Shown here piece after piece: positions 1-15,221 of a stretch of 15,392 nt of DNA; position 1 is the first letter of the stretch; each line of letters starts with the position of its first letter. The translations under genes were made by a program, and so were the position numbers. Origin of the DNA: Jimgerdemannia flammicorona. Its lineage: Eukaryota > Mucoromycota > Endogonomycetes > Endogonales > Endogonaceae. Below the pieces are notes generated by a model that was given only the letters and a program-made list of their open reading frames with translations, ran no database searches and was not told where the DNA came from. Where the stretch lies: assembly GCA_003990745.1 (NCBI GenBank), contig RBNI01003675.1:1-15392 (forward strand). The letters run 5' to 3'.

Positions 1-1232
1 ACTGCTGGTTGAAGGTTCGCCTTGATCATCTGAGCTTGAATCCGATGGTAGAAACTCTTGGGGGTTTCATTGGCAGCTTGGCTCATATAGGTCAAAGCCT
101 CCTGTGCTTCTTGTTGGCACTTGAATCTATTGAACTGGGCATGGAGCCAGGCTTTGTGAATCATGTATCTTGATACATGGTTTCTATCAGATTGAAGGCC
201 ATCATTCAGTTCCTCTGTATGGATTCCTCCTCCGGCTTGCTTGGCTTGATTATACCTCTGTAGAGCTGGTCCTCTCAGGAGTGACTCCACAATTCTGAGT
301 TTTCTTGCAGCATCCCATTGTTTGGTGGCTGCTTGAACTTCGATTTCTCCAAAGAATTCCTCGATATCCTCATTATCTGCACCATGGAACTTCTGAAGGT
401 AGCTCATGTCTGGCTCATCTTCACTATCTGAGTATTGTTCAGGGGTGGGGGTTCTGACAGATCCTCGGGGTAATGGGAAAGGTAGTGGTGCTAGTACTTG
501 ATGATCTAGTGGTGCTGGCAGAGGGTGGTGTCTTGGTGAGGGTGAGGGTAATCTGGCTCTTCTAATTAATGCTGGGGTTGAAGTCCTGGGTAGTGGTGAA
601 GATCCTCTGATAGACTGGTGATAGTGGCGAGGTGTGAGTGACCAGGGTACCGAAGTTCGAGCAACTGATGGTGGGAGTGGACTGATATAACTAATAGAGA
701 GTTCCTCTGCCCCTTGCTGTTGTGAAGTAGTGAGGTCTTGTTCACCTTGCTGTGAGTTTGTATCACTGTCTGGATAATGGTATAGATTGAATTCGTCCCT
801 TTGATGGTCTGATCCCCAATCATCGTCTTGCTCTGGTTGATATGGATGGTAGTCCTCTTCTCCTTCTGATGTTTCAAAGTATACCCAGTCTAGTGGGGTG
901 ACTCGAGTAACAACAGTAGTTATGTAGTCACTTCTGTCTGAGTTTTTCCTATAGATAAGGGTCTGATACTCCTCGGGGATATCCTCTTCTTCTTCTTGGC
1001 TTAAGTCTTGGATCTGAAGGGGCAGTTCTGGTTGTCCTCTGAGTCATCTCCTTTCTCTTGAAGTCAAACCGTAATCTGGGTCACTTCTTTCTTCTGATTC
1101 AGTTTTCTGGCTACTGGTGTTGAATAGGGTCCTGGCCACTGTTCTGACAAGGGTGTGGGCTTTCTTTTCTGCTGAGAAGGGCTGTTGCTGCCCCTGGTTT
1201 GGTTGCTGACTTGGTCCTGCTAAGTTCTCCAC
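1..1232 (-). pseudogene. gag: Element 1 Gag (partial, one in-frame TGA)
   Basis: A frame runs from an ATG at 1232 to the window edge (410 codons) with one interruption, a TGA at 1046-1044 after residue 62. Residues 1-275 are a low-complexity, Gln/Glu/Ser/Pro-rich leader with an acidic run around 970-1000. From about 407 leftwards it becomes a retrotransposon capsid: an FHG..N-D-EEFF..IE motif followed by a W-to-GPA stretch, and later ETPKSFYHRIQ, which matches ESPRAFFIRIQ in element 2 gag. Gag would form the virus-like particle in the cytoplasm and package the RNA. No zinc knuckle is seen because the frame leaves the window before that point. The TGA most simply comes from CGA by CpG decay. 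The ATG at 1232 is chosen because it is the first in frame after the PBS. Confidence 0.82.
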
Positions 1233-1283
1233 TGTAGATAGCTGGGTTCTTGAGCCAAATGGTCAAGTCTTTTGAAAACTTTT

Positions 1284-1298
1284 CCAGTTGAGCCCCCA
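1284..1298 (-). other. Element 1 primer binding site
   Basis: On the minus strand TGGGGGCTCAACTGG lies 3 nt after the end of the LTR, the expected position for the minus-strand primer. The same 15 bases occur at the equivalent position of element 2. The matching tRNA cannot be named from sequence alone. The primer 3' end would read CCAGTTGAGCCC followed by CCA. Confidence 0.7.
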
Positions 1299-2059
1299 AA
1301 ATGTGGCATTCGATTTGTATTACTAAAGGTTCAAACACTGCTCAATGGTGCCACTTGTGTGAAGCGCGCGATGTATAACTGAAGGCGTTGGTGACATTTG
1401 CGAGTCGATGGTCATGTGACAGGTCATTCGATTCATATGGTGGAGGCTCGGGGCGAATTACTTCTTGAACGTATGCAGTTTGGGTCGTTCGATATGTTGG
1501 TAATTGATAATATCAGGACTTCGATTGTTCAACGGTGGTGACTCAGGACATTGATGGCTCAATTGTTTAGTGGAAAAGGGCGGCGATTATGCTGGCTAAG
1601 TTTCCTGGCAGCGATTAACTTGGCGGCAAACTTGAATTTATGCGGCGATGACGGGCTTGGCTATAAGCGGTCAATTAAAGCGGTCCATGGTGCAGTAGGT
1701 TGGGGAAAATGGAAGACGGCAGTCGTACGTTTGGTTACTTGTTTAACTTAGGGACATGTGGAATGGTGACGGAATGGCGGTCGTTCTGGGTGTTGGTCTT
1801 GTATCCTGGTCTTTTTGAGTTCCTTGGGTTCTCGGGTCTTGAATCTCGAATGGCAGGCGTGGTCTCGAATGGCGGCAGTCGGCGGTTGGTTTCCTTAACT
1901 TGGCGGTGGTTTTCCTGGTGGCTTTCCTTAGCGACAGTTCTTGAACAAGAGTTTTCCTTGGCTCTTAGAGTCTTTTCCCAAAGTTTCTCAAAAACTTAAG
2001 TTGGTATTATCTTACACTAGACTTCTGCGTTGTTCAGATAAAAGACCAATGGACTGAGG

Positions 2060-2091
2060 TTTATTCACTCTAAGATATGGGGTTACTTATA
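2060..2091 (-). promoter_or_regulatory. Element 1 LTR core promoter (TATAAG) and polyadenylation signal (AATAAA)
   Basis: The minus strand has TATAAG at 2091-2086 and AATAAA at 2065-2060, with 20 nt between them. The same pair with the same spacing occurs in both element 2 LTRs, inside a conserved stretch that also includes ACTTGTATAA and GTGAATAAACCTCAG. Transcription would start about 25-30 nt after the TATA box, around the AATAAA, and so define the start of R. The roles are inferred from position and conservation. Confidence 0.6.
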
Positions 2092-2222
2092 CAAGTTTGC
2101 TAACTATGGGAGGGGCATGACTAAGGCTAAGGTATACTACGTTGTGGCGAACTTTGCTATATTATTGGCTTGCACGATGCGAGGTGCAGGCTATTGTTTA
2201 CTACAGATTGGGTTGTAGGGGA

Positions 2223-2380
2223 TAGCAATGCTGGATTCAGACTTGCTGACATAACGTTGAAAATGGTGGTACTGAGTAGCAATGCTGGATTCGGACTTGC
2301 TGACAAAATGCTGAAAATGGTGGTACTGGGTAGCAACGCTGGATTCGGACTTGCTGACAAAATGCTGAAAATGGTGGTAC
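2223..2380. repeat. 3 x 54 bp tandem repeat in element 1 U3
   Basis: Three head-to-tail copies start at 2223, 2277 and 2331, each beginning TAGCAAYGCTGGATTC and ending ATGGTGGTACT. The period is exactly 54 bp. Copies 2 and 3 are nearly identical and copy 1 is more diverged. The block lies between the ORF end and the TATA box, the usual place for LTR enhancer repeats. Confidence 0.9.
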
Positions 2381-2383
2381 TTT

Positions 2384-3481
2384 CTAAAGGAAATAGTACC
2401 CTTCGTCTGCAGCGGGCAAATCTTGCTGGGTTAAGATTTCTTCTTCATCATACCTCTCCTCAAAAGGGGGAAGTGCTGGCCAAGAGGTGAGGGGGTAGAA
2501 AAGTGGCCAGTCATCTTCAACAACATTCTCCAACCCTTGAACAGCTTGAATGCGGACAGAGGACTGGTAGACTCTCTGTTGCTCCTCTTCTTCTGGAAAC
2601 TCATCAGTTTCAGTGTCAGAGGGGGTTTCTTCAGGGGCAGGGTCTTGGAGTTCTTGGGCTTCCTCTTCAAAGACAGGGACTTCTTGGGCTTCTTCTTGAT
2701 TTGGTTCCCAAATGATGAGATGTGAATTGTGGCTGACAGGGTGGTGGGTGATTGGGGTAGTTCCAACAGGTGCTTCTATGGTAATGGGTGGACCTTCAAA
2801 TATCTCCATAAGACTCATTAGGTGACCTTGATGGTTGTCTCAGAGTGGGGTGGTGTGGAAACCTGGCTGAGTGGATTCAGTTTGTTGGCTTCCTATGGCG
2901 ACGCGGTTGCTGCCAGTAGAGTTGGCTACTTCAGATTCTATCCAGTCAGCATCTTCAGTCGAAAGGCGGGAGAGGCTGCCTGCTGTTACTCCTTGCAAGT
3001 GTGCTATGGTCCAGGGAATATGGCGGAAGATTTGGTGGACACAGAGGGCTCTCTTGATTAGCCGGCTAGTGGTTATCAATTCGGTAATGAGACCTTCCTG
3101 GTCGTCTTCTTGAGTCTCATTGCAAAGGCGGTGTCTGATTTTGTAGTCATGCCAGAGGGTCATTCGTTCAGTAGTATCTTTGAGCTGCTGGGTCATTATA
3201 TACTGATAGTTGATGAAGTGTCCAAGGTCCTCGGTGTAGAAGTTCAAGTGTTCAGAAGTATCTGGGCGCCAGATGGCCTTCTTGATAGCTTCAAAGATCA
3301 GGGTCTTTGGGCCAGGCAAAGGGGTAGAGTGGTGGGAAGTCTGGTTGGATCGGCGGATGGGAGGCATTGTGTGATGGGTACTTGGTTCTTTGGTGCCGAT
3401 CCCTGAGGCGGAGTATGGTTTCTTAAATAACATGGTCTTCATTTTGGCTTGGATCATCTTGTCTTCTTTTGGGATGATCAC
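2384..3481 (-). pseudogene. ORF in element 1 U3 (or 3' accessory ORF), 366 codons with one TGA
   Basis: I do not recognise this protein. One frame is open from 3481 to 2384 and is broken only by a TGA at 2842-2840. It is preceded by an in-frame TAG at 3484-3482; the first ATG in frame is nine codons in, at 3457. The N-terminal half is basic and Thr/Pro-rich. It is followed by a helical, Leu/Arg/Gln-rich middle with an IFRHIPWTIAHLQG stretch, and then a strongly acidic C-terminal third (several E-E-E-rich runs, about codons 235-366). There is no signal peptide or obvious membrane segment. The architecture (helical middle, acidic tail, end close to the U3 repeats) resembles the extra 3' ORF of element 2, and a short segment aligns by hydrophobic pattern. 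A regulatory or Gag-associated role is possible but not shown. TGA probably derives from CGA. Confidence 0.6.
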
Positions 3482-3574
3482 CTAATGGGTCAGGCTGTCT
3501 ATTTGATTGTCATGCCATTATGTTGTCTGATCTTAGCAGTCACTGGTACTCCGTTGTCAATTACGTACGTCACA

Positions 3575-4591
3575 ATATATTGGTTATATTTTTTATCTAT
3601 AAGTAGATATTTCAGATATATTTTGGAACACCTTTTAAGCTATGAAAATTTCTTAGATATAGAATTTTAAAATAGTGTTTGAATTATATATAGTTCTAGT
3701 TTTTGTATATATTGTATTACTTTTCATCTAGTTTGTATTATTTTAATTACATATCTCATTGAGTAGGAGTATTGAAATAACAACTTGATATCTCAATATG
3801 TAATTACACTATTTTATTAGTTTTATAACATTTATTTGTAATATATAAAATATATAATCTATATAACTTTAATAAAATTATCTCTTTTTTATAATACTTC
3901 TCTCTATTGCCTAAGCCTACTTATTAAACTTAGTATTAAACTCTAGATACTTATCAAACTAAAGGACAGTATACTAGAATATTTGAAAAACAATTTCACT
4001 TTATTGTTCATCACTTAAGTTAATAATGTTCTTATGAGATACTTTATAAAGATAGTTGAGAACTTAAAGACAGATGTAGAAAAGAACATAGAGTATTTTG
4101 ATCATAATATAAGTATAGTTATTAATGAAAGATCAAGCTTATTATTTGATATTACTGAGAGTAGCTTATTGACAGATGAGGTATCCTATCTCATAATACT
4201 CATTTAATTCTTATTAGTAGAGAAAGTCTAGAAATACCAGATCCTTCTAAGATATTATTAGACTTTATTTAGATCTGGGTCTCTAGAGATTCATATATTA
4301 ACAGAAGGTAGTTTGATAGAGTTCTAATAATATTTAATAGCTCTAAGAACAGTAGTAGCAATCTTATTCTAATTTATACTTAGTATTATTGCTGAGTACT
4401 TAAGTATATTAGAGATGAGTTATCTATATAGAGTTGTTTCAGAATATTTATATTTCTCTTTATTAGTAATATTTAGAAGTATGACTATCTTTTGGAAATT
4501 CTTTGGAAATTCTTTAAAAATTTTCAATATACTAGATATCTGTATTGGATTACTACTTCTTCTGCATTAGACAAAAGACTGACTTCTTTTT
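3575..4591. other. AT-rich decayed DNA without a recognisable gene
   Basis: The composition changes sharply at 3575 to TpA-rich, very AT-rich sequence with almost no CpG. On the minus strand it lies downstream of the chromodomain fragment, so part of it may be the 3' untranslated region and LTR of the old chromovirus. I find no convincing coding match. The longest plus-strand run (4034-4207, 57 codons) is within chance for this composition. Strong RIP or RIP-like mutation is the simplest explanation. Confidence 0.7.
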
Positions 4592-5167
4592 TCAAATAAT
4601 ATTATACTTGAAGAATCTTTTCCATTTCACAAGATAGTATTGAGTGAGCTTAGTAGTATATTCAAATTAATAATTCTTGTGATCTAAGATATTGTCTACT
4701 TTATATTCTAGTTATTGATTAATAATTATTAGATCTGAAAGTAGTATAGTTCTTTCTTCAAAAATATTTAAGATATATAGCTGAAGTTGAGATATATAGA
4801 ATACTAGGTAAATTCTTTCTAGTATTGCTAAATGATCTATCTTATATATAACAGATCCATATTTTTTAAGAATTTTGAATGATTCAATATAGCAGAGTTT
4901 AAGCTTCTTTTTAGAATCTGTGTTATTTAGAATCAGGTATTAGGTGCTGAGTAATACTTACTCTTCTTTTTTATAAATAACTTCTCTTTATATCTCTATG
5001 AGAATATCTCTTGCTTGCTGAATATTATCTTATATAGTATTAGTAATTTCTTTTATAGTCAGTACTATAGTTTGTATCATAATTATATAAGTTCATTAAT
5101 ATTGTTATAGTTTAGATAAAATAACATCAGCTTAATACTTATACTTATATTATTATTATATATATAC
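4592..5167 (-). pseudogene. Old chromovirus remnant: integrase C-terminus and chromodomain
   Basis: Despite extreme AT bias, the minus strand from 5167 to 4592 reads as the C-terminal part of a Ty3/Gypsy chromovirus polyprotein. In order: the end of the integrase core (YNN, then LFYLNY at the usual SPF..YG position), a QQARD helix segment, a GPY/F module at about 4913-4770 (KLKLCYI..FKILKKYGSVIYK, then VFYISQLQ for the usual VFHVSQL), and a chromodomain at about 4711-4592 (EYKVDNILDHK, then YYLVKWKRF). The chromodomain normally targets integration to methylated histone H3 in heterochromatin. Several TAA and TGA stops and many G-to-A-type replacements show it is dead. Element 2 is inserted in its upstream end, and the rest continues at 15226. 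Confidence 0.85.
5164..5167. repeat. Target site duplication (left), ATAC
   Basis: ATAC directly precedes the left LTR and is repeated at 15222-15225 after the right LTR. Removing element 2 and one copy puts the chromovirus integrase frame back in register, which supports both the boundaries and the duplication. Confidence 0.75.
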
Positions 5168-5407
5168 TGTAATGTGCCAGCTCAATGGAGGCAGATTACA
5201 AGGTTGGGGTTAATGTAGTTTGGCTTGAGCCCCCAGTTACTTTGTCAAAAAGCAACAAAATGTTCTAAGATTTCCTAAGGTCTTTGGTGTTTAGTGGTAT
5301 AATAGTCAAGCTAGATATCTGCGAGCAATTTCCTTATTGGGACGGTTCTCTGGGTATAGTGGCGATTTATGTCTTTCCTTCTTGGGTCAACTGGGAGTAC
5401 CGCAATT

Positions 5408-5839
5408 TGTGTAGCATGAGCGGTTTCTTTCTTGAGTAGTGGGTGATTTCTTTGTGTAGCATGATAATCTCCTTGTATGTAACGGTCTGGTAATTTAGCG
5501 GTCCTCCTTATGTGGTTTCTGCATGATGATCTCTGTGTAGCGTGATGATTTCCAAAAGTATGCGATTTCTTGTAGGACGATTTTGGCGGACTTCTCGATT
5601 TGGGTGCGGGTTCTCGAAAAGCAGTAGTTTGGGAATAGAAGATGGTGCAGATTCTTCTTACTGGGAATTATACTGGCATGGTTTCTTCTGTATTGGGCTC
5701 ACTGGGAATAATGGATAACTTGGATGTCACGAATCGGGCTCTTCTGGGAATAATATCTCAGGTGGCGCGAATTTGGCTTTGACTGGGAATACTACTCGGA
5801 TGACGTGGATTCTTCCTGAATCGGCAGGTTTCTGAGAAT
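5408..5839. repeat. Degenerate ~40 bp repeats inside the R/U5 part of the LTR
   Basis: CTGGGAAT recurs at 5661, 5702, 5744 and 5783, with CTGAGAAT at 5832 (spacing 41, 42, 39, 49). TGTGTAGC recurs at 5408, 5453 and 5534 (spacing 45 and 81), usually followed by a TGA-rich and TTTCC tail. The right LTR has equivalents, some altered by transitions. The long transcribed leader seems to have grown by duplication of a unit of about 40 bp. Confidence 0.6.
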
Positions 5840-6109
5840 GCGGTGGAAGGGCGAAAGTCTTCAGGCTTATCTGGCAAGCGAACCAAAATATAGCGGACTT
5901 CTCTTGAAAACAGACTCGTTCTTTGTATCGGAAAGTGGACTGGAGTGGGAAAGGGGCAAAGCTCACAATCTCCTAGTAGTGGCTGTAGAGCAGACATTTC
6001 TCCTAAGTGTTGCAATCCAATTCCTTTAGGATCAAGTGGCTTTTGGCAGGCATATCTCTCGAAGTGTAGTAGGCAGACTTGTCTTTTGCTTTGTATTTTG
6101 GAACTGAGG

Positions 6110-6141
6110 TTTATTCACTCTTGTCTCTGGGGTAATTTATA
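6110..6141 (-). promoter_or_regulatory. Element 2 left LTR core promoter (TATAAA) and AATAAA signal
   Basis: The minus strand has TATAAA at 6141-6136 and AATAAA at 6115-6110. Spacing and flanks match element 1 (2091-2060) and the right LTR. In this 3' copy the AATAAA would serve transcript end formation. The role is inferred. Confidence 0.62.
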
Positions 6142-6201
6142 CAAGTTGGTTGCTATCCAGTTACTATGTGGCTAACTATAGATTTGCTATTTATGGTGAG
6201 T

Positions 6202-6256
6202 TGTGCAGGTCTAGCACAAGTGTGCAGGTCTGGCACAGGTGTGCAGGTCCTGCACA
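6202..6256. repeat. 3 x 19 bp palindromic repeat in U3 (left LTR)
   Basis: Units of 17 bp start at 6202, 6221 and 6240. The third, TGTGCAGGTCCTGCACA, is a perfect inverted repeat of 8 bp arms around one base; the other two differ by one or two bases in one arm. They lie about 60 bp upstream of the TATA box, so they are good candidates for a dimeric activator or repressor site. Confidence 0.8.
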
Positions 6257-6403
6257 GATATACCTTATCTGGTAGTCTGGCTATTTATACAGTTTCCACA
6301 GCAATGGTTGCTGGTTACTATGCTGGGTGTTCATGTCATCTGGCTAATTGTTTGCATCATCTGGCTAAGATATAATTCAGGTGATACGTTCTGGTTCATC
6401 ACA

Positions 6404-6417
6404 TCAGCCCCCACTAA
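6404..6417 (-). other. Polypurine tract of element 2
   Basis: The minus strand reads TTAGTGGGGGCTGA and abuts the LTR start TGTGATG. A G-rich purine run at this site is expected to resist RNase H and prime plus-strand DNA. It shares TGGGGGCT with the PBS. Confidence 0.7.
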
Positions 6418-6443
6418 AGGATGGTCTGTCTCCAGACTATCTT

Positions 6444-6959
6444 TTAGTCATCATTCCAGTGTGGGTAAGTGTCTTCTGCATCAATACCTGTTTCATCATC
6501 TTCGTCATCTGTACCATGGTCACTCCATTCCAAGGGTTCCTCTTCTTCTTCTGGGAATAAAATCTCGACAGCATTGACAATACTCAGGTAGGTGGCTAGG
6601 TTCATTCCTCATGTATCATACCAGGAGAATTGTGCTTGCATCAGAGCTGCAGGGTTTCACTTATAGAGGGTGTAGAGCCTGTCAGCAGCAGTTACATCTC
6701 TTCTTGATAGTTCTGTGGTATTTCTGATATATGTTAGTTCTGAGACTGGGAGGTTTTGCAATTGTTCTCCAATTGCATAGTGGGCCTAAAGTTGATGGAC
6801 CTGTAGCAATTGTCTGGCCAGGACGAGATTCTCTTGATGAATCTGGATCTTCTGGAGAGTGTTCTCATTGACTTCCCAGAATTGGGGTAGGGGAACTGGC
6901 AGTGATTGAAATGAGCTGAGGATAAGAGTCTGAAGGCAGTTGTCAATTCTCTGACTCAT
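6444..6959 (-). pseudogene. Extra 3' ORF of element 2 (171 codons, three in-frame stops)
   Basis: I do not recognise this protein. The ATG at 6959 overlaps the integrase stop (6945-6943) by 17 nt in the +1 frame, and the frame ends with TAA at 6446-6444, about 27 nt before the PPT. It is broken by TAG at 6788-6786, TGA at 6659-6657 and TGA at 6611-6609. The N-terminal part is predicted helical (Leu/Gln-rich, around residues 25-60), the middle contains SRRDVTAADRLYTLYK, and the last 45 residues are very acidic (EEEEE, then DDEDDE). No membrane segment or signal peptide argues against an envelope. The position matches accessory or env genes of retroviruses, but the function is unknown. It may be related to the ORF at 3481-2384. 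Confidence 0.65.
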
Positions 6960-8037
6960 GATGTGGGGAAAGGTATATCTTGAGGTGGTTGATGTACACT
7001 GATGTTCTGAGGGTTTGTCTATCCATGCTTCTTAAATAGATGCTGGTTCCTCTGATATTGTATACAAGATAAGGTCCTTCCCATTTCAGTTCTAGTTTAG
7101 CAGCAAAGTTTGTCTCGATCATGCTTCTCCAAACTAGGACTTGATCTCCAATCTTGATCTCTTGATCCTTCTGTTTTTTGTTGTAGTACTTCTTTTGTCT
7201 TTCCTGGGCCTTGATAATCTGTCCTTGGGCTTGATTTCATAACTGTTCTGCCTTTTTGAGGAGGTCTCTGAGATTCTCATGGTCAGCAGTTCTGGTTCTC
7301 TTGGCAAACATCATTTCGAATGGCTTTTGTTTGGTGGATATAGCAGGGGTGTTCCGAATTTCCCATAAGATCTCAGGTAAGCAGAGGTCCCAATTAGTAG
7401 GATTGACTCAGGCAAGTCCTTTCTTGATGGTCTGGTTCATTCTCTCTGTCATACCATTGTCTGGGGGTGGTATGATGTGGTCCTTTTGAGGTGGATCTTG
7501 TGAATTCAGGCATAACTTGTGATTATGTTATTGATGAATTCTGTGCCTCGGTCAGAAATGAGTTCTTCTGGGGGTACATATCTGAATGTAAGTTCATGGA
7601 GGAGGCCTACAATGGTTAAGGCATCTGCAATTTCCATTGGGAAAGCCTCGGGCCACTTAGTCAGGTGTTCCACAATTACAAGGATATATTTATTTCATCT
7701 TGGTATAACTGGTAGAGGTCCAATTACATCTACTCTCCATCTCTGAAGATGTGAGTGGGTGGGGGAATCGGTTGCAAAGGAGCTTGATAGTTCTTCTTTC
7801 CTTGGTACTTCTGGCAAGTATCACATTTCTGGATAATGTCTCGGACTTGAGTTCTGAGGTAAGACCAAGGTTGATACAGTTTTTGAATCTTCTCTTCTGT
7901 GCTTGTCTGTCCTTGATGGGCTTTCTGATGTTCTTTTCAGATGAGATCTTCTTGTGCTTTGATGGTCTGAGGAGCTTCCTTTAGGGTGTAGTTTCTGGGG
8001 ACACCCTTCTTCTGGTTCATTGGAGTTGGCAGAAAAG
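6943..8037 (-). pseudogene. int: Integrase (HHCC, D-D-35-E, GPY/F), disrupted
   Basis: The pol C-terminus, which would insert the cDNA in the nucleus. The zinc-binding N-terminus (H-x3-H, then CDTC) is at about 7936-7800. The catalytic core has Asp at 7730-7728 (VDVIGPLP), Asp at 7553-7551 (ISDRGTEF) and Glu at 7446-7444 (NGMTERMNQ). The last two are 35 residues apart only if one base is counted as lost near 7459. A GPY/F module (KWEGPYLVYN, then VYINHLKIY) ends the protein. There is no chromodomain. The frame changes near 8035, 7745 and 7459. Five in-frame stops, all TGA, lie at 7939, 7697, 7508, 7410 and 7239. All catalytic residues survive, but the gene cannot be translated whole. Confidence 0.9.
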
Positions 8038-8475
8038 TACATTAACATTGTTGTGAGCTTTCTCTACTTTGTGGATGATGGTGATTTTGTAATCCTGAAG
8101 AATAAGGATCCAGCAGGCTAGGATTCCTGTGGGTTCCTTGTGGTTGAATAACCATTTGAGGGCTGCATGGTCTATAATCAGGGTGAACCTTTTTCCGATG
8201 AGGTAATGCTTGAATAGGGTGACTGCCCATATGACTGCAAGGCATTCCAGTTTGGTGCTACCATAGTTCATCTGCTGCTGATTGGTAGCTCTGCTCGCAT
8301 AAGCTATCACATGGTGCTGTTGATCAGGTCCTTCCTGGGCTAGAACTGCTCCGAGGCCATCTTTAGAAGCATCTGTATACAAGATGAATGGCTTCTGTAG
8401 ATTGGGGCGCACAAGGATTGGTGCTGTGGTCATGCAGTTTTTGAGTTCCTTGAAGGCTTTTCCTTGTGATTCTGT
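8017..8475 (-). pseudogene. rnh: RNase H domain
   Basis: Degrades the RNA strand of the cDNA hybrid inside the particle. It follows RT in the same frame after a TAA at 8478-8476. The visible motifs are LYTDASKDGLGAVL (first Asp), TKLECLAVIWA (Glu) and IDHAALKWL (second Asp). The final conserved Asp position, in the KAHNN-V-N-V stretch, is Asn (AAT at 8043-8041), which a single G-to-A change would produce. The reading frame is lost just after this, near 8035. The length is normal for a Gypsy RNase H. Confidence 0.9.
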
Positions 8476-9483
8476 TTATTTGAATAGTACTCCTTTCTTG
8501 AGAAGGATCCGGATTGGGGCAGTGATTTGAGCAAAGTTCTTGATAAACCTTCTGTAATAGGATACTAGCATCAGAAATGATAGTGTCTCCTTTGGGGTCT
8601 TGGGTACTGGCCAATTGTTGATCTTCTCAGTTTTCTTTGGATCTGCATGGGTTCTTTCTTTTGTGAATATAAATCCAAGGAATTTGAGTTTCTGTTTCCC
8701 AAAGTAACATTTCTTTGCATTTAGCCTCAAGTGGTTTTTGCGGGTGAGCTTGAAGAATTCCTCTAAGTGGTGCAGGTGTTCTTCGAAATTTGCAAAATAG
8801 ATATTGGAATCATCCATGTATACAATCAGACAGTGGTGAATCAAAGGGGCATAGACTGAATTCATCATCCTCTGAAAGGTGGGGGGTGTATTGCAGAGTC
8901 CAAAGAGTATTCAGAGATACTCAAATAGTTTTCCTAGAGTGAGGAAGACTGTCTTTTGAATGTCCTTGGGGTCCATGGAGATCTCGTGGAATCCTGCAAA
9001 GAGGTCCATACTGCTGAAGTATCTGGCATCTTGTAACTGATCCAAAAGGTCATCGATTCTGGGCAAAGGATAGGCATCCTTTTCGGTAACTGAATTGAGT
9101 TTTCTGTAATCCACACAGAGTCTCCATCCTCCCTTCTTCAGTACAATAAGTATAGGACTGGCCCAAGGGCTGGTAGAGGGTCGGATGACTCCATTGTCTA
9201 AGAGTTCTTGTATGTGCTCCTTTTCAAATGTTTTCAAGTAATGGGATATTCTATAAGGTTTCTGCCAGATGGGTGTTGCACTTTCTGTATGTATGCTGTA
9301 GTGATATGATGGATTGTATGGCAGGTTGCCATAATCGGTGGTGAAGATATCTTGATATTTGTTGAGAAGTTCTGCTAGTTGTTGCTGTTGTTGAGGTGTC
9401 AATTCTTCTCCAATGTTGGTGGAAGACTTCACTGTCTCTGGGTCGCAGAGGGGCCTTTCCTTTCTTCTGGGACCTTTTGCCAT
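8476..9483 (-). pseudogene. rt: Reverse transcriptase, broken by one TGA
   Basis: Copies genomic RNA to cDNA in the particle. After a leader with a Q5 run it shows the standard Gypsy series: WQKPYRIS, GVIRPSTSPWASPIL, GGWRLCVDYRKLN, YFSSMDLFAGFHEI (catalytic Asp), FGLCNTPPTFQ and IVYMDDSNIYF (catalytic YMDD), then KCYFGK..LKFLGF and the thumb/connection with SYYRRFIKNFA. A TGA at 8913-8911 falls between FEYL and ILFGL, and a TAA ends the segment at 8478-8476. Both sides are in one frame, the same frame as gag and protease but not the same as the dUTPase region. The catalytic residues are intact. Confidence 0.93.
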
Positions 9484-9835
9484 TTCTCAATAGGTTTAGT
9501 TCATAAACTTCTCTATGAGTTCGGTTGAGAAAAGGCACCAGATGTCCTATGATGGTTCCTTTCAGCAAGATGATGGTTTCCCAGCTTTGGTTGATTCCTC
9601 AGGAGTGTACTGGATCCATCTTGTTGGGGAATGTGTGTCCCTCTATATCCAGGTGTGGGATATCTTCCTTGGGTTCAAAGAAGAGGTTTCTGGGGTCAGG
9701 TGATGCAAAGATTTCGAAGGTAGTTTGCTCTCCAGGTTCCAGGATGAGATTCTTATGCAGTCTAACTGGTTGCCGGTACACTTGCTGGGGAACATTCCTC
9801 TTGAGGTGGTTGACTTGAAGGAGATGTACCTCCTT
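9484..9835 (-). pseudogene. Pol linker between dUTPase and RT
   Basis: It continues the dUTPase frame. It resembles the beta-rich linker that usually joins protease to RT in Gypsy pol: LEPGEQTTFEIFAS, NLFFEP, then LLKGTIIGHLVPF. Its presence after, not before, the dUTPase shows where the extra cassette was placed, between the protease and this linker. A TGA at 9601-9599 interrupts it, and the frame must change near 9485 to enter RT. Confidence 0.65.
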
Positions 9836-10225
9836 CCCATCTGAACTTCCAAATCCCTTTGCTTGTCTTGTTCCTTCAGTTAGTTCAGGGACTTCCTGTA
9901 GCTGTGGGGTCTTGACCTTCATGAAGACTGCTTGAGCAATCTTCTGTCCTCTAATAATTCAGTGCCATTCTGCACTGCTGTTGTGTAGGATAACCTTGAT
10001 TTCGCCTGTATATCCAGGGTCAATAGTTCCTCCTTCTACAGTTATCCCTTGGCTGGCAAGTCCAGACCTTGAGGTCAGTTGAATATAAGCTCCTTGGGGT
10101 GGCTGCATGGCTAGTCCAGTTCTGACCATGAAGGTCTTTCCAGACTTGATAGATTCTTCCTCCAGGCTGTGAAGATCATATCCTACATCTTCTGGGTGGG
10201 CTTTGGTCGGAGGTTTGGCTTTTGG
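9836..10225 (-). pseudogene. dut: dUTPase domain within pol (all five motifs, one TGA)
   Basis: A trimeric-type dUTP pyrophosphatase, which hydrolyses dUTP to dUMP and pyrophosphate and would lower uracil incorporation during reverse transcription. All five family motifs are visible in order: HPEDVGYDLHS (motif 1), LTSRSGLAS (2), GGTIDPGYTGEIKV (3, with the catalytic Asp and the base-stacking Tyr), IIRGQKIAQAVF (4) and AKGFGSSDG (5, the flexible arm). A TGA at 9961-9959 lies between motifs 3 and 4, where CGA decay is the simplest origin. The length of about 130 residues is normal. It is fused behind a Cys/His-rich region and before the pol linker. Retroviral dUTPases of this fold occur in lentiviruses (between RNase H and integrase) and betaretroviruses (before protease); the position here differs from both. 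Confidence 0.92.
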
Positions 10226-11410
10226 GTGCAGTAGGACATACTGGGCAATATCCTTGCTGAGTTCAGGCTTTTCTAGGGCTGAAGCTCCACTAGCAGAGAG
10301 CCTCCAAGCTCTGAGGTTGAGGTGTGGCCATCTGGCTCCAGTAGAAGGATCTTGAAGGTAATTAATTCCCCTTCTTCCTGTAGGGTCTAGGGCTTCCATG
10401 AAGTTGGCAGCATCTTCTGCCCATCCTTGGTGAGTAGCATGTCTGATAAGAGCTAGAACATCTTCTCCCAAATTGTAGATCTTGAAGATTCTTCTTCCTG
10501 GCTTCTTGGTCTGGCTTTTTTGAATCTGGCTCTTTCGGATCTGACTTCGGTCATCTCCTTTCTTCAAAGTATGCACTGCAACATCATGACTGAGGTGAAT
10601 CTTCTGATGTCTGCAGTCTCGGCAGTCAGGGTGTCTCCCATGATTGCAATATCCCATTGCTCGAAAATGATTTTCCCAGCTATTTATCTCTTGTTGTCTT
10701 GGAAATCGATACCCATCTTGATCATAAGTTGGGGGAAGGGTAGACAAGGGGTATATTTCTGTTCGGGTGAAGAAGCCTTGTCCCCTAAATCGACTTTGTA
10801 GTCTTGTGGTGACTTCTTGAAAGGTGGTAGACTGTGCAAGAGTAGTTGGGGGTTCTGGTCTCTGGGGTCTCTGTCTTTCTTGTTGGTCCAACAAATGACA
10901 CTGGTAGCAGTAGTCTCGGGGAGAGTGGAAGATCATTTGGTGAGGACATCTTCCTAGCCAAAAGGCTTTCTCTTGGTGGGTTTCTTTCTTAGAAATAATG
11001 GTGATTATACTGGATCCTTCTTCTATATTCCAAGGGTCATTGTCTTCAGGTGGTGTCCAGCAAGGGTCATCCCAGAGAATGAGTTCAGGGACCTCTTCTT
11101 CATTGGGTGCTTCTTGTTCAGGAGCTTCTTGGTCAGAAGTTTCTTCTTCCTCAAGTGATTCTTGACCCCAAATCACTTGTACTTCTGCAGCTTCGGTTGC
11201 AGGTGTTTCCAGAACATGTCTGCATTTCTTCTTCTTTCTTCTGCACTCTGGGCAGGCTATGCCAGGCGATTTCCTTGTTCCCATAATCTTGGAGGAGTGC
11301 TTGGGACACCTGTGTCTCTTGAGGCATGTAGGGCATCCTTTGATTTCTCCTGCAATGGCTCCAATGGTGATAGGGATGGTATTCTTGGCCCATACATTGT
11401 ATTCTGGTCT
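10226..11410 (-). CDS. Cys/His-rich region between protease and dUTPase, function unknown
   Basis: Open without a stop from 11410 down through the dUTPase to 9962, the longest open frame in the window (about 483 codons). Numbered from the ATG at 11284, it has four Cys/His clusters. Cluster I (upstream of that ATG, 11335-11297) is C-x2-C-x5-C-x2-H. Cluster II is C11, C14, C21, H23 with a poly-Lys run. Cluster III is C113, H115, H120, C126, C129, H130. Cluster IV is C213, H215, H218, C221, C224, H226. III and IV share the form G-x-C-x-H...H...C-x2-C...H and look like duplicated units. Acidic (residues 41-70) and basic (residues 242-265) stretches separate them. Zinc and nucleic-acid binding is a reasonable inference; I do not recognise the family. 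It is in the -1 frame relative to the protease and RT. Confidence 0.7.
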
Positions 11411-11427
11411 TCATCCACCAGGTTAAT

Positions 11428-11937
11428 TCAGGGATTGAGTCTGGGATCATTTCTATCTTCAGATTCTTCTTCCTCTTCTGTAGTAGACTCCTCACTACTG
11501 GCATATTCTTCTTGAATAGTGATCTTCTTCTTCTTCTTTGATTGTTCATAGCTGGTCACCTTAACTCTGTACTTCTTTCCTCGATAGTCAAACTTGAGTA
11601 CTTGTTGGCTGATATCAACAACTGCATTCATTTCCTTCATCCAGTTGGTGCTAAGAATCATGTCATAGGTGACAGCTTCTGTGACAACAGCTTTGGGAAT
11701 GGAGAACTGGATTTGTCTCAGAGAAATGGTGATGTTTTGTACTTCTCGAAGGGGTTGAGTTCGGGCTCCATCTGCTACTATGATGCTGAGGTTGGATGGT
11801 CCATCAATGGGCCATTTGAGGGTGTCCAAGAATCATTAGGCAATGACACAGATAGCTGCTCCTGTGACTATAAGGATTTTCACTTTTTGCCCTCCAATAT
11901 CTCCATGTAAGTAGGTGCTGACATGTCTTTCGGCTGC
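11428..11937 (-). pseudogene. pro: Retropepsin-like protease with altered active site
   Basis: An aspartic protease that would process Gag and Pol in the particle. It follows gag in the same frame. The segment GQKVKILIVTGAA sits at the usual LIDTGA site, but the catalytic Asp codon is GTC (Val) at 11868-11866, an A-to-T transversion not expected from deamination. The flap and C-terminal part follow normally (SNLSIIVADG, then YDMILSTNWM and VVDISQQVLKF). Stops lie at 11940-11938 (TAA), 11838-11833 (TAA TGA) and 11430-11428 (TGA). A Lys-rich, then Glu-rich tail leads towards the Cys/His region in another frame. Confidence 0.8.
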
Positions 11938-13923
11938 TTAGACAGGGATGGAAGCTGGTTCTTGCTGTGGGATTGGAACTCAGCCAGTGCTAGACCTGGT
12001 GGTTCTCAGCAATTTGTTTCGAACTCCAGCTGGTGTCAGTTGTAAGAACTGCAGGAGAGGGACTTCCATCTTAGCCTCTTGAATCTTCTGCCAGGCTTCA
12101 TTGTAGATATCTCTGGACATGGTCTTTGGAGAATACTTTTTCTTGGGCTTCAGGGGTATAGGTTCCCATTCTTCTTGTTCCATTTCTTCATCTTCTGGTG
12201 GCAGCTCATTTGTTTTGGGCACAAATGGTGAGGGAGTTCGGAGAGGTATTTCTACCTGTTCCTCTTCATGCTCTTCATCTTCTTCCTAGATCATTCTTCT
12301 GCTGACATTTCTGGATGGCCTTCCTACAGGTCTCTTCCTTTTTTCTGCTGGGTAGACTGTTTTTCGGGTGCTAACCTTGGTGGGGTATAAGTCTAAGTCA
12401 CTGTAGTCTTCACTGTTGCTTGCTTCTTCGAAATCTTCAACAGGATGGGCTTCAGTCTTCTTGTACTGAGTATTATTCCTTTGGTTCGGTGGTTCTGAGT
12501 CCCTTTGGTCATTTCTTTTATTGTCACATTCAATAGCATAGTGTCTGAATTGTCCACAGTAGAAGCATTGGACTTGGGCTCTGTCTCGGGTGGGGTACCT
12601 TCATTCTTCTTGCTGGTAATTCCTGTTATCTCTTGGTGGATAACCTTGGCTCCTCTGTGATGGGTATGCTCTGTTGTCCTGGTAATTCCGATTTTCATGT
12701 ATGGTGAGTTTTTCAATCTGTCCAACCAATCGGTCCAACTTGGAGCTAAGGTCTTGGATTTCACTTCTGTCCTTCTTTCCTTCCTTGGCTGGCCTTCTTT
12801 CTTCAGATCTTTCTTGTCCTTGAAGGAGTCCTTGTAGGGCTTTGACCAGGATGTCTTCCTTCTCTTCTTTTCTGTCATGATCACTCTAGGTAGTTCCTTG
12901 TCTGATATCAAAGTATCCTTGGGCTGCATCTACTTGTTCCTTGGACCTTCTGATGCCTAGGGTGTGGACATGCTGAGCAATATTTGTGGAAATTCCATTC
13001 ATGAAGGTCATTGGACCTATGATGTCTTGGTTGGTGGCATTGAACCCAGCAGAATGCATTCTCTTCTGGATTCTTATGAAGAAGGCTCTGGGTGATTCTC
13101 CAAGATTTATCTTCATTCCCATGATGGATTCCTGAGCCTTGTAGTGGGTTTCATTTCCTGCATACTTTTCGATGAGTCAGTAGACCATGGCTTCATATTC
13201 TAGCTCATCAGACATCACTGCTTATATCTGTCTTGCTAATTCTGAACCTCGGTTGTTTGCTGTTTGATGGAAAATTCCTCTGGCTGGTTCACTGAGCTGG
13301 GCTTTGTAGATAGCGATTTTTCTTTCATCTGAGAGGTTTCTCAAGACTGCAATTCCTTCAATTCCATCAAGGAATTCTCTGGGGTCTTCCTCCAGATATC
13401 CTGCAAAGGTTGGCAATAAAGTGGCCATTTCTTTGTCACTTTCTTCTGATTCTGGTTCAGGTTCGGATTCAGATTCTAATTCGCTTTCTGAGCTGTCACT
13501 GGAGATGGGGGTGCTTGGGTATCCTGAGGATGGTGTTCTGGTCCTTGGGCGAAGTGGGATAGGCCTAGGTGATCTTGTAGAGACTACTTCCAGTTCTGCA
13601 AGGGGCTGTAGTAGGGGTTCTATTGGTGAGATTGGTGGGGCTGGGGAGGGTTGTCTGGCTGTAAAGTGTTGGGTTCGTGTGATGAGATCTTCTAGTTCTT
13701 GTGCAAGTTCTCCGAAATCTCTAGCAGGGCTATCTGTATTGTCTGGTTGATCTGGTTGAGGATTTCAGGCTGTACTGCCTTCTGGTTCTAGTTGGGATCC
13801 TTCTGATGCTGGGTAGTTAGCAAGTCTTGATGTGATTACTTCTCTTCCTGTCCAAATGCTGGTGATAACTGGTTCTCCTGTAGTGGCAGAAGTTGGTGTT
13901 GGATCAAATGTATCCAGTTTGAC
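11938..13923 (-). pseudogene. gag: Gag: capsid and CCHC zinc knuckle, multiple stops
   Basis: One frame runs from about 13923 into the protease. An acidic Ser/Glu-rich leader (SESELESESEPEPESEES) precedes the ATG at 13428. Comparison with element 1 suggests that gag began upstream and that the original start is lost. Capsid follows: FAGYLEEDPREFLDGIEGI, then LGESPRAFFIRIQKRM. A perfect knuckle CFYCGQFRHYAIEC (C-x2-C-x4-H-x4-C) at 12567-12526 would bind the genomic RNA. Beyond it are a basic KRKRPVGRPSR patch and an acidic linker. In-frame stops lie at 13767 (TGA), 13224 (TAA), 13179 (TGA), 12888 (TAG), 12603 (TGA), 12288 (TAG) and 11982 (TGA). Both CGA-type and CAG/CAA-type origins are possible. 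Confidence 0.88.
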
Positions 13924-13967
13924 TGTGGGTTCTTGTGAGCTGAAAAGTCACGTCGATTTGAAATCTT

Positions 13968-13983
13968 CCCAGTTGAGCCCCCA
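13968..13983 (-). other. Element 2 primer binding site
   Basis: The minus strand reads TGGGGGCTCAACTGGG, 2 nt after the 5' LTR. It is shared with element 1. An 11-base match (TGGGGGCTCAA) also occurs inside U5 of the left LTR at 5235-5225. The tRNA is not identified. Confidence 0.72.
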
Positions 13984-14927
13984 AATGTAATGTACCGGCT
14001 CAATAGAGGTAGATTACAAGGTTGGGGTTAATGTAGTTTGGCTTAAGCCCCCAGTTACTTTGTCAAAAAGCAACAAAATGTTCTAAGATTTCCTAAGGTC
14101 TTTGGTGTTTAGTGGTATAATAGTCAAGCTGGATATCTGTGAGCGATTTCCTTATTGGGACAGTTCTCTGGGTGTAGCAGCGATTTATATCTTTCCTTCT
14201 TGGGTCAACTGAGAGTACCACAATTTGTGTAGCACAAGCAGTTTCTTTCTTGAGTAGTGGGTGATTTCTTTGTGTAGTGTGACAATCTCCTTGTACGTAA
14301 TGGTCTGGTAATTTAGCAGTCCTCCTTATGCGGTTTCTGCATGACAATCTCTGTGTAGCATGACGATTTCCAAAAGTATGCGATTTCTTGCAGGATGATT
14401 TTTATGGACTTCTCGATTTGGGTGCAGGTTCTCCAAAAGCGGCGGTTTGGGAATAGAAGATGGCACAGATTCTTCTTACTGGGAATTATACTGGCATGGT
14501 TTCTTCTGTACTGGGCTCACTGGGAATAATGGATAACTCGGATGTTTCAAATCGGGCTCTTCTGGGAATAATAACTCGGGTGGCGCGAATTCAGCTTTGA
14601 CTGGGAATACTACTCGGATGACGTGGATTCTTTCTGAATCGGTGGGCTTCTGGGAATGCAGCGGAAGGGCGAAAGTCTTCAGGCTTATCTGGCAAGTGAA
14701 CCAAAACATAGCAGACTTCTCTTGAAAACAGACTCGTTCTTTGTATCGGAAAGTGGACTGGAGTGGGAAAGGGGCAAAGCTCACAATCTCCTAGTAGTAG
14801 CTGTAGAGCAGGCATTTCTCCTAAGTATTGTAATCCAATTCCTCTAGGATCAAGTGGCTTTTGGCAGGCATATCTCTTGAAGTGTAGTAGGCAGACTTGT
14901 CTTTTGCTTTGTATTTTGGAACTGAGG

Positions 14928-14959
14928 TTTATTCACTCTTGTCTCTGGGGTAATTTATA
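14928..14959 (-). promoter_or_regulatory. Element 2 5' LTR promoter (TATAAA) and AATAAA
   Basis: The minus strand has TATAAA at 14959-14954 and AATAAA at 14933-14928, identical in spacing to the other LTR and to element 1. In the 5' copy this should be the functional promoter. The TATA box is unchanged in spite of the many transitions around it. Confidence 0.62.
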
Positions 14960-15019
14960 CAAGTTGGTTGCTATCCAGTTACTATGTGGCTAACTATAGA
15001 TTTGCTATTTATGGCAAGT

Positions 15020-15074
15020 TGTGTAGGTCCAGCATAAGTGTGTAGGTCCGGCACAGGTGTGCAGGTCCAGCACA
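15020..15074. repeat. 3 x 19 bp palindromic repeat in U3 (right LTR)
   Basis: The counterpart of 6202-6256, with units starting at 15020, 15039 and 15058. Here C-to-T changes have weakened the arms (TGTGTAGG for TGTGCAGG), so symmetry is reduced compared with the left copy. Confidence 0.75.
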
Positions 15075-15221
15075 GATATACCTTATCTGGTAGTCTGGCT
15101 ATTTATACAGTTTCCACAGCAATGGTTGCTGGTTACTATGCTGGGTGTTCATGACATCTGGCTAATTGTTCGCGTCATCTGGCTAAGGTATAATTCAGGT
15201 GATATATTCTGGTTCGTCATA

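Follow-up and report, generated by a model that had tools for sequence, protein, structure and literature searches.

The window studied here is the whole of contig C3675 of the fungus Jimgerdemannia flammicorona (15,392 bp; the assembly comprises 7,754 contigs and 134.8 Mb). It contains two long terminal repeat (LTR) elements, both on the minus strand, and an open reading frame (ORF) was located in the U3 part of the LTR of the first of them, element 1. Comparison with related copies showed that the ORF belongs intrinsically to each of the two LTRs. It is quite probable that element 1 belongs to a family of LTR retrotransposons of Ty3/Gypsy order (dUTPase, reverse transcriptase, RNase H and integrase) that has a gene for an additional protein in its U3. 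This protein would be an accessory factor produced from the genomic RNA at its 3' end. The internal domains were read in copy L019, where dUTPase, RVT_1, RT_RNaseH and Integrase_H2C2 follow one another above their Pfam cut-offs, with rve_3 below its cut-off; reverse transcriptase and RNase H precede integrase, and the assignment to Ty3/Gypsy was made by this domain order.

The 5' LTR of element 1 occupies positions 1302 to 3574 of the minus strand (2,273 bp) and reads TGTGACG...GCCACA in the sense direction, with TGTGGC and CACA as its ends on the plus strand. Its edges are common to other copies; the putative primer-binding site adjoins one end and AT-rich DNA the other, where the GC fraction drops from 0.48 (3001-3500) to 0.23 (3501-4000). 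A search of the assembly with the ORF region gave 206 first-look candidates, of which the best 40 were scored (all at least 94% identical, the window included), and 20 of the 39 other scored copies were fetched with their flanks and compared at their ends. Alignments of the element 1 LTR with other copies ended at 1302 and at 3574-3591. In half of the 20 copies a polypurine tract stood directly before the LTR start, which identified them as 3' LTRs (L011, L012, L014, L016-L021 and L028); the preceding sequence in these ten was GCTCTAATTTTGCAAGGGGCAGA, and the LTR started with TGTG (TGTA in L011). The other ten had different, mostly AT-rich sequence at this place, like the window. At the opposite end, U5 adjoined the primer-binding site in L015, L022 and the window, and a sequence starting with ATA in L010, L011, L013, L014, L017 and L026-L028, while L023 and L025 ran on past U5 into gag. 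Four copies with non-element sequence on both sides (L010, L013, L026 and L027) were solo LTRs, each spanning the ORF and reaching the same end. The ORF was present in all 3' LTRs and all solo LTRs of this set, and the LTR edge at 3574, which the sequence-only reading had proposed together with an ORF encoded in U3 and present twice per element, was borne out by the copy alignments, the drop in GC and the polypurine tracts.

These copies bear directly on the alternative that the ORF came from a separate element, adjacent to or nested in a shorter LTR ending near 2380. Tandem repeats ending at 2381 could mimic such a boundary, and LTRs without the ORF would be left out of a sample in which all 20 copies were found through the ORF region, so that copies of this kind could be missed; within this sample, no copy ending near 2380 without the ORF was found. 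Against the alternative stand the 3' LTR starts, which lie directly behind the polypurine tract and upstream of the ORF, the solo LTRs, the element C54, which was found through gag rather than through the ORF and whose 5' LTR still carries the ORF, and a related element, C358, in which both LTRs hold the ORF between matching flanks. The alternative was rejected on the evidence of the polypurine tract, C54 and C358, and we consider it extremely improbable.

The arrangement of a complete element was examined in C358, as the second LTR of element 1 lies off the contig. A protein search with the U3 ORF (3,344 first-look candidates, 112 scored, 113 matches listed) detected two ORF copies in C358, 9,989 bp apart in one orientation. 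They lie in LTRs of 2,112 and 2,111 bp that are 90.9% identical and have TGTGAC...CACA ends. The primer-binding site follows the first LTR, the polypurine tract precedes the second, and ATAG is found on both outer flanks. The C358 LTR is 72-80% identical to that of the window across the alignable parts, and this divergence indicated that the ORF-in-LTR arrangement is older than their split. The 3' LTR of C350, still older, keeps the arrangement, with an ORF protein of 58% identity. Outside this assembly, relatives of the U3 ORF were found in public assemblies (P0002-P0011); the nearest of them, P0002, a protein of 325 amino acids on an outside contig of 1,116 nt with 6 member sequences, is 82% identical, and a relative of the P0004 type has roughly 270 amino acids.

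The long frame extends from 3481 to 2384 on the minus strand and comprises 366 codons, the terminal stop counted, and is interrupted once, by a TGA at 2842-2840, as had been noted from the sequence-only reading. The true start is likely an ATG (3367-3365) that encodes residue 39 of this frame (M39), because a frameshift of 1 nt in both C358 LTRs lies upstream of it and P0002 begins at the same methionine. The likely coding part of the U3 gene would accordingly span 2384 to 3367 on the minus strand, from this ATG to the stop at 2386-2384 (327 codons plus the stop), and is broken in the window by the TGA. The upstream part of the open frame (3368-3481, minus strand), in which both C358 LTRs have the 1-nt deletion relative to L009, is probably a non-coding leader. 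From M39 to the end the frame is open in 4 of the 20 other copies (L009, L019, L023 and L025), and among 68 listed protein-search matches that begin no later than query residue 6 and extend to residue 366, five were free of stops (C1914, C3800, C1967, C7593 and C2798). Stop positions vary from copy to copy. The TGA of the window looks like the decay of a single copy, since other copies read R (CGA) at that codon; recoding of the TGA was rejected for the same reason.

The substitution pattern pointed to a protein-coding history. Differences between L009 and related copies, counted at codon positions 1:2:3, were 51:29:94 for the C358 3' LTR, 44:35:91 for the C358 5' LTR and 90:56:134 for C350; the binomial P values for the third-position excess between subfamilies were 1.6e-8, 4.9e-8 and 3.5e-7. 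The ratio of non-synonymous to synonymous substitution rates (dN/dS) was 0.17-0.18 for these comparisons and 0.17-0.22 across all subfamily pairs. The two C358 LTRs, which have diverged since insertion, gave 27:22:25 (binomial P 0.51, dN/dS 0.5). Downstream of M39, insertions and deletions measured 3, 6 or 54 nt, alignment ends aside, and the single-base shift common to both C358 copies precedes M39. Judged from these sequence comparisons, the U3 ORF evolved under purifying selection between subfamilies. A frame kept open by chance or base composition, with no protein made, would fit the presence of at least one stop in 63 of the 68 full-span copies and the shorter frames that also occur in U3 on both strands. 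Stops that differ between copies are as expected if the copies are dead, and the third-position excess and low dN/dS between subfamilies beside the flat C358 LTR pair, the in-frame insertions and deletions, the 82%-identical relative elsewhere and a homologous ORF in another family all speak against chance, which we rate as highly unlikely.

This other family, family C, is abundant and differs from that of element 1 in LTR and primer-site region. Its LTR pair in C1448 (loci L045 and L046) was aligned over 1,562 bp without gaps at 89.0% identity, with TGTAAC...TGACA ends and ATAT on both sides, and the LTRs hold a homologous ORF at the same place (28-29% identity, E 7e-17 and 4e-15, against these two loci only). 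Family C was reached through matches of P0001 to loci of a related family, which were 27-43% identical (lowest E 3e-11, eight sequences in the set). The U3 proteins align from about the first methionine, and the element 1 residues Q112, I113, F114, H116, W119, I121 and L135 are invariant in the rows present. At least eight contigs carry two family C LTRs 6.6-7.6 kb apart in one orientation (best 40 of 3,204 candidates); the candidate counts of 3,116, 3,204 and 3,697 are first-look counts and not confirmed copies. A stretch of 113 amino acids contained a stop in 53 of 150 copies scored and none in the other 97, and the longest stop-free family C frame among the matches listed was 306 amino acids. 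Codon-position counts for L048 versus L047 were 24:20:44 (P 0.0009). The frame at the gag position of family C had no Pfam match. A third family, family B, whose gag is 67-73% identical in DNA, showed decayed ORF traces that run in the same direction as the element, in L029 and one of two L031 matches; it is a probable carrier of the U3 ORF on this sequence evidence, with LTR ends that are not fixed. Traces in L030 and in the other L031 match have the opposite orientation and were set aside as parts of neighbouring elements.

Taken across the families, the data leave room for a broader interpretation, which we put forward tentatively as somewhat short of an even chance: a single ancient accessory gene may have persisted in the U3 of two or more, and probably of three, families of LTR retrotransposons that share a genome but have different LTRs and primer sites. 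It was perhaps first an ordinary third ORF behind pol that was pulled into the LTR by a shifted polypurine tract, and may now reside in hundreds to thousands of LTRs, which would make a class of U3-encoded genes for non-retroviral LTR elements.

Element 2 is relevant to this origin. It extends from 5168 to 15221 on the minus strand, with LTRs of 1,236 bp each at 5168-6403 and 13986-15221 and ATAC on both flanks, and it has a third ORF of its own at 6444-6959 (minus strand), between pol and the polypurine tract and outside the LTRs, with three internal stops in this copy. Seven database relatives of this third ORF were found (171 amino acids in P0012), together with one weak Pfam match below cut-off and 729 first-look genomic candidates. 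A refinement of the U3-gene interpretation, speculative and in our judgement less likely than not, is that the gene once lay as a normal third ORF between pol and the 3' LTR and came to be part of U3 through the appearance of a new polypurine tract upstream of it; element 2, which has a short U3, would then represent the older state. The TATA box of element 2 lies only 263 nt into U3, versus 1,484, 1,460-1,461 and 1,322-1,324 nt in the ORF-holding LTRs, and both proteins have acidic C-terminal halves (isoelectric point (pI) 4.05-4.16). On the other side, homology of the U3 protein with the element 2 third ORF was not established: BLASTP returned no significant match, hhalign gave E values of 0.044 and 0.079 in two differing alignments, and the real score was reached by 4 of 100 column shuffles. 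As separate observations, the coding part of element 2 is split into several frames in this copy, with a dUTPase domain in the frame 9959-11284, and the stretch between elements 1 and 2 (3575-5167) is AT-rich (about 23-26% GC).

To return to the U3 gene of element 1, its position relative to the presumed transcription signals was considered. A core block at 2060-2091 (minus strand) contains TATAAG (2091-2086) and, 26 nt downstream, AATAAA (2065-2060); this pair begins 1,484 nt into the LTR (window position 2091), beyond the ORF stop at 2384 in the sense direction. TATA followed by AATAAA 26-29 nt on was found in all seven LTRs examined from four element types (element 1 and both LTRs each of C358, element 2 and C1448), and further TATA-like sites are also present, notably in C1448. 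If R starts at this block, which is the usual case and from which the U3/R border was inferred, the likely coding frame would lie wholly in U3. Tandem Repeats Finder (TRF) detected 54-bp tandem repeats in 2.9 copies (2223-2381, minus strand), downstream of the ORF stop and upstream of the TATA box. The 54-bp period also occurs in L010, and periods of 54 and 82 bp in L015 (array at L015 5467-5741); no array of the 54-bp type was reported in C358 or L046. The unit and copy number of the U3 tandem repeats vary among copies.

During LTR replication, U3 occurs in the genomic RNA at the 3' end only, and the ORF would therefore be the last gene on that RNA. The U3 protein could be made off the 3' LTR copy through an RNA that is spliced, starts internally or arises by read-through, and the ORF would then be copied into both LTRs by reverse transcription; a CTGAC...TAG stretch in the leader is a possible splice acceptor, as a guess. 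Among the three U3 proteins measured, the pI was 6.2-9.1 for the N-terminal half and 4.05-4.16 for the C-terminal half. The highest 19-residue mean hydropathy was 0.74-1.07, and no membrane-like segment was found in the three by hydropathy only, no dedicated predictor or signal-peptide test having been run; the low hydropathy speaks against an envelope protein. A C-terminal half that is strongly acidic, an N-terminal half that ranges from less acidic to basic, and the lack of a membrane-like segment would suit an intracellular accessory factor that serves the element in trans, a reading held with low confidence. By analogy with retroviral 3' accessory genes, transcription control or escape from silencing are our two best guesses for its role, though even taken together they are doubtful. 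A transactivator binding the 54-bp repeats is only a guess.

Several results weigh against a functional U3 protein or soften the case for it. Neither a transcript nor a protein was observed. Since the presumed main promoter is located past the ORF, it could not drive production of the protein in a solo LTR or a 5' LTR. The U3 proteins had no Pfam, NCBIfam or PDB match, and two AlphaFold models had mean pLDDT (predicted local distance difference test) values of 38.3 and 43.6, with helices at unusably low confidence. The dN/dS of the C358 LTR pair is 0.5 and not 1, so that the value of 0.17 has to be judged against 0.5; the contrast of the C358 3' LTR-L009 comparison with that pair gave a chi-square P of 0.0054 and the C350 comparison a P of 0.042, which are significant and not overwhelming. 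Among its own copies, the family of the window showed dN/dS of 0.18-0.41. In family C the codon test was weaker, with a third-position excess at P<0.05 in three of five copy comparisons, and the C1448 LTR pair, the intended control, was also third-position-biased (43:16:43, P 0.039). Finally, a repeat-binding transactivator stays a guess because C358 has no such array reported.

The remaining parts of element 1 were also mapped. The putative, conserved primer-binding site TGGGGGCTCAACTGG (1284-1298, minus strand) is situated just internal to U5 in the window and in L015, L022 and C358. The tRNA 3' end that it needs, CCAGTTGAGCCC+CCA, had no genomic match with the one pattern tried, and the primer may for that reason be unusual. 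The leader and gag-like part (1-1283, minus strand) adjoins the primer-binding site, contains an open frame at 3-407, is repeated in other copies and runs off the contig; it had no Pfam match above cut-off. The 4-bp flanks were equal in four of the six elements compared; as most flanks are ATAT-like, however, 14 of 30 crossed pairs agreed too. The ATAG/ATAG flanks of C358 and the ATAC/ATAC flanks of element 2, which was outside the six, are compatible with a 4-bp target-site duplication, and the insertion flanks, being mostly ATAT-like, suggest that DNA of this kind is preferred.

Should the protein be produced, every insertion would bring in its gene twice, and one copy would remain in every solo LTR. 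A U3 gene would be overlooked by annotation in which LTRs count as non-coding, and the paired gene copies of an element provide a built-in control for selection studies.

A gene within the LTR is an arrangement known from a few animal retroviruses, and to our knowledge whole genes in U3 are hardly known outside mouse mammary tumour virus (MMTV). The superantigen (Naf) gene sag of MMTV, a betaretrovirus, has about 320 codons, close in size to the U3 ORF described here. Sag is a membrane protein, unlike the U3 proteins, which lack a membrane-like segment by hydropathy, and no env was recognised in these elements. The nef gene of human and simian immunodeficiency viruses (HIV/SIV) and bel2/bet of foamy viruses are likewise the 3'-most accessory genes of the genomic RNA and overlap U3, but only partly, whereas the whole likely coding part lies in U3 here. 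The parallel with nef and sag drawn in the sequence-only reading therefore holds as an arrangement, and no kinship with those genes was shown, the Sag sequence not having been directly compared. A literature search aimed at genes in LTRs, covering titles and the beginnings of abstracts with subscription journals mostly outside it, found no LTR retrotransposon with a U3 gene, which is no proof of novelty. The accessible part of one report describes a fungal element with two internal ORFs and mentions no LTR ORF (PMC10787394), and a mussel element has, in the portion available, an antisense ORF of 67 amino acids, a different thing (PMC10974842). In LTR retrotransposons of bdelloid rotifers, an extra, non-envelope third ORF comparable to the U3 ORF occurs, one type of which is common to unrelated lineages; it lies downstream of pol, and the available text of the source has nothing placing it inside the LTR, unlike the ORF here (PMC5408684). 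The same text places a dUTPase upstream of the reverse transcriptase in bdelloid rotifer and basidiomycete elements, as in L019 (PMC5408684). MMTV, according to the accessible part of its source, has the sag ORF in U3 and hence in both LTRs, and also has a dUTPase, and the elements described here are like it in both respects (PMC9412291).
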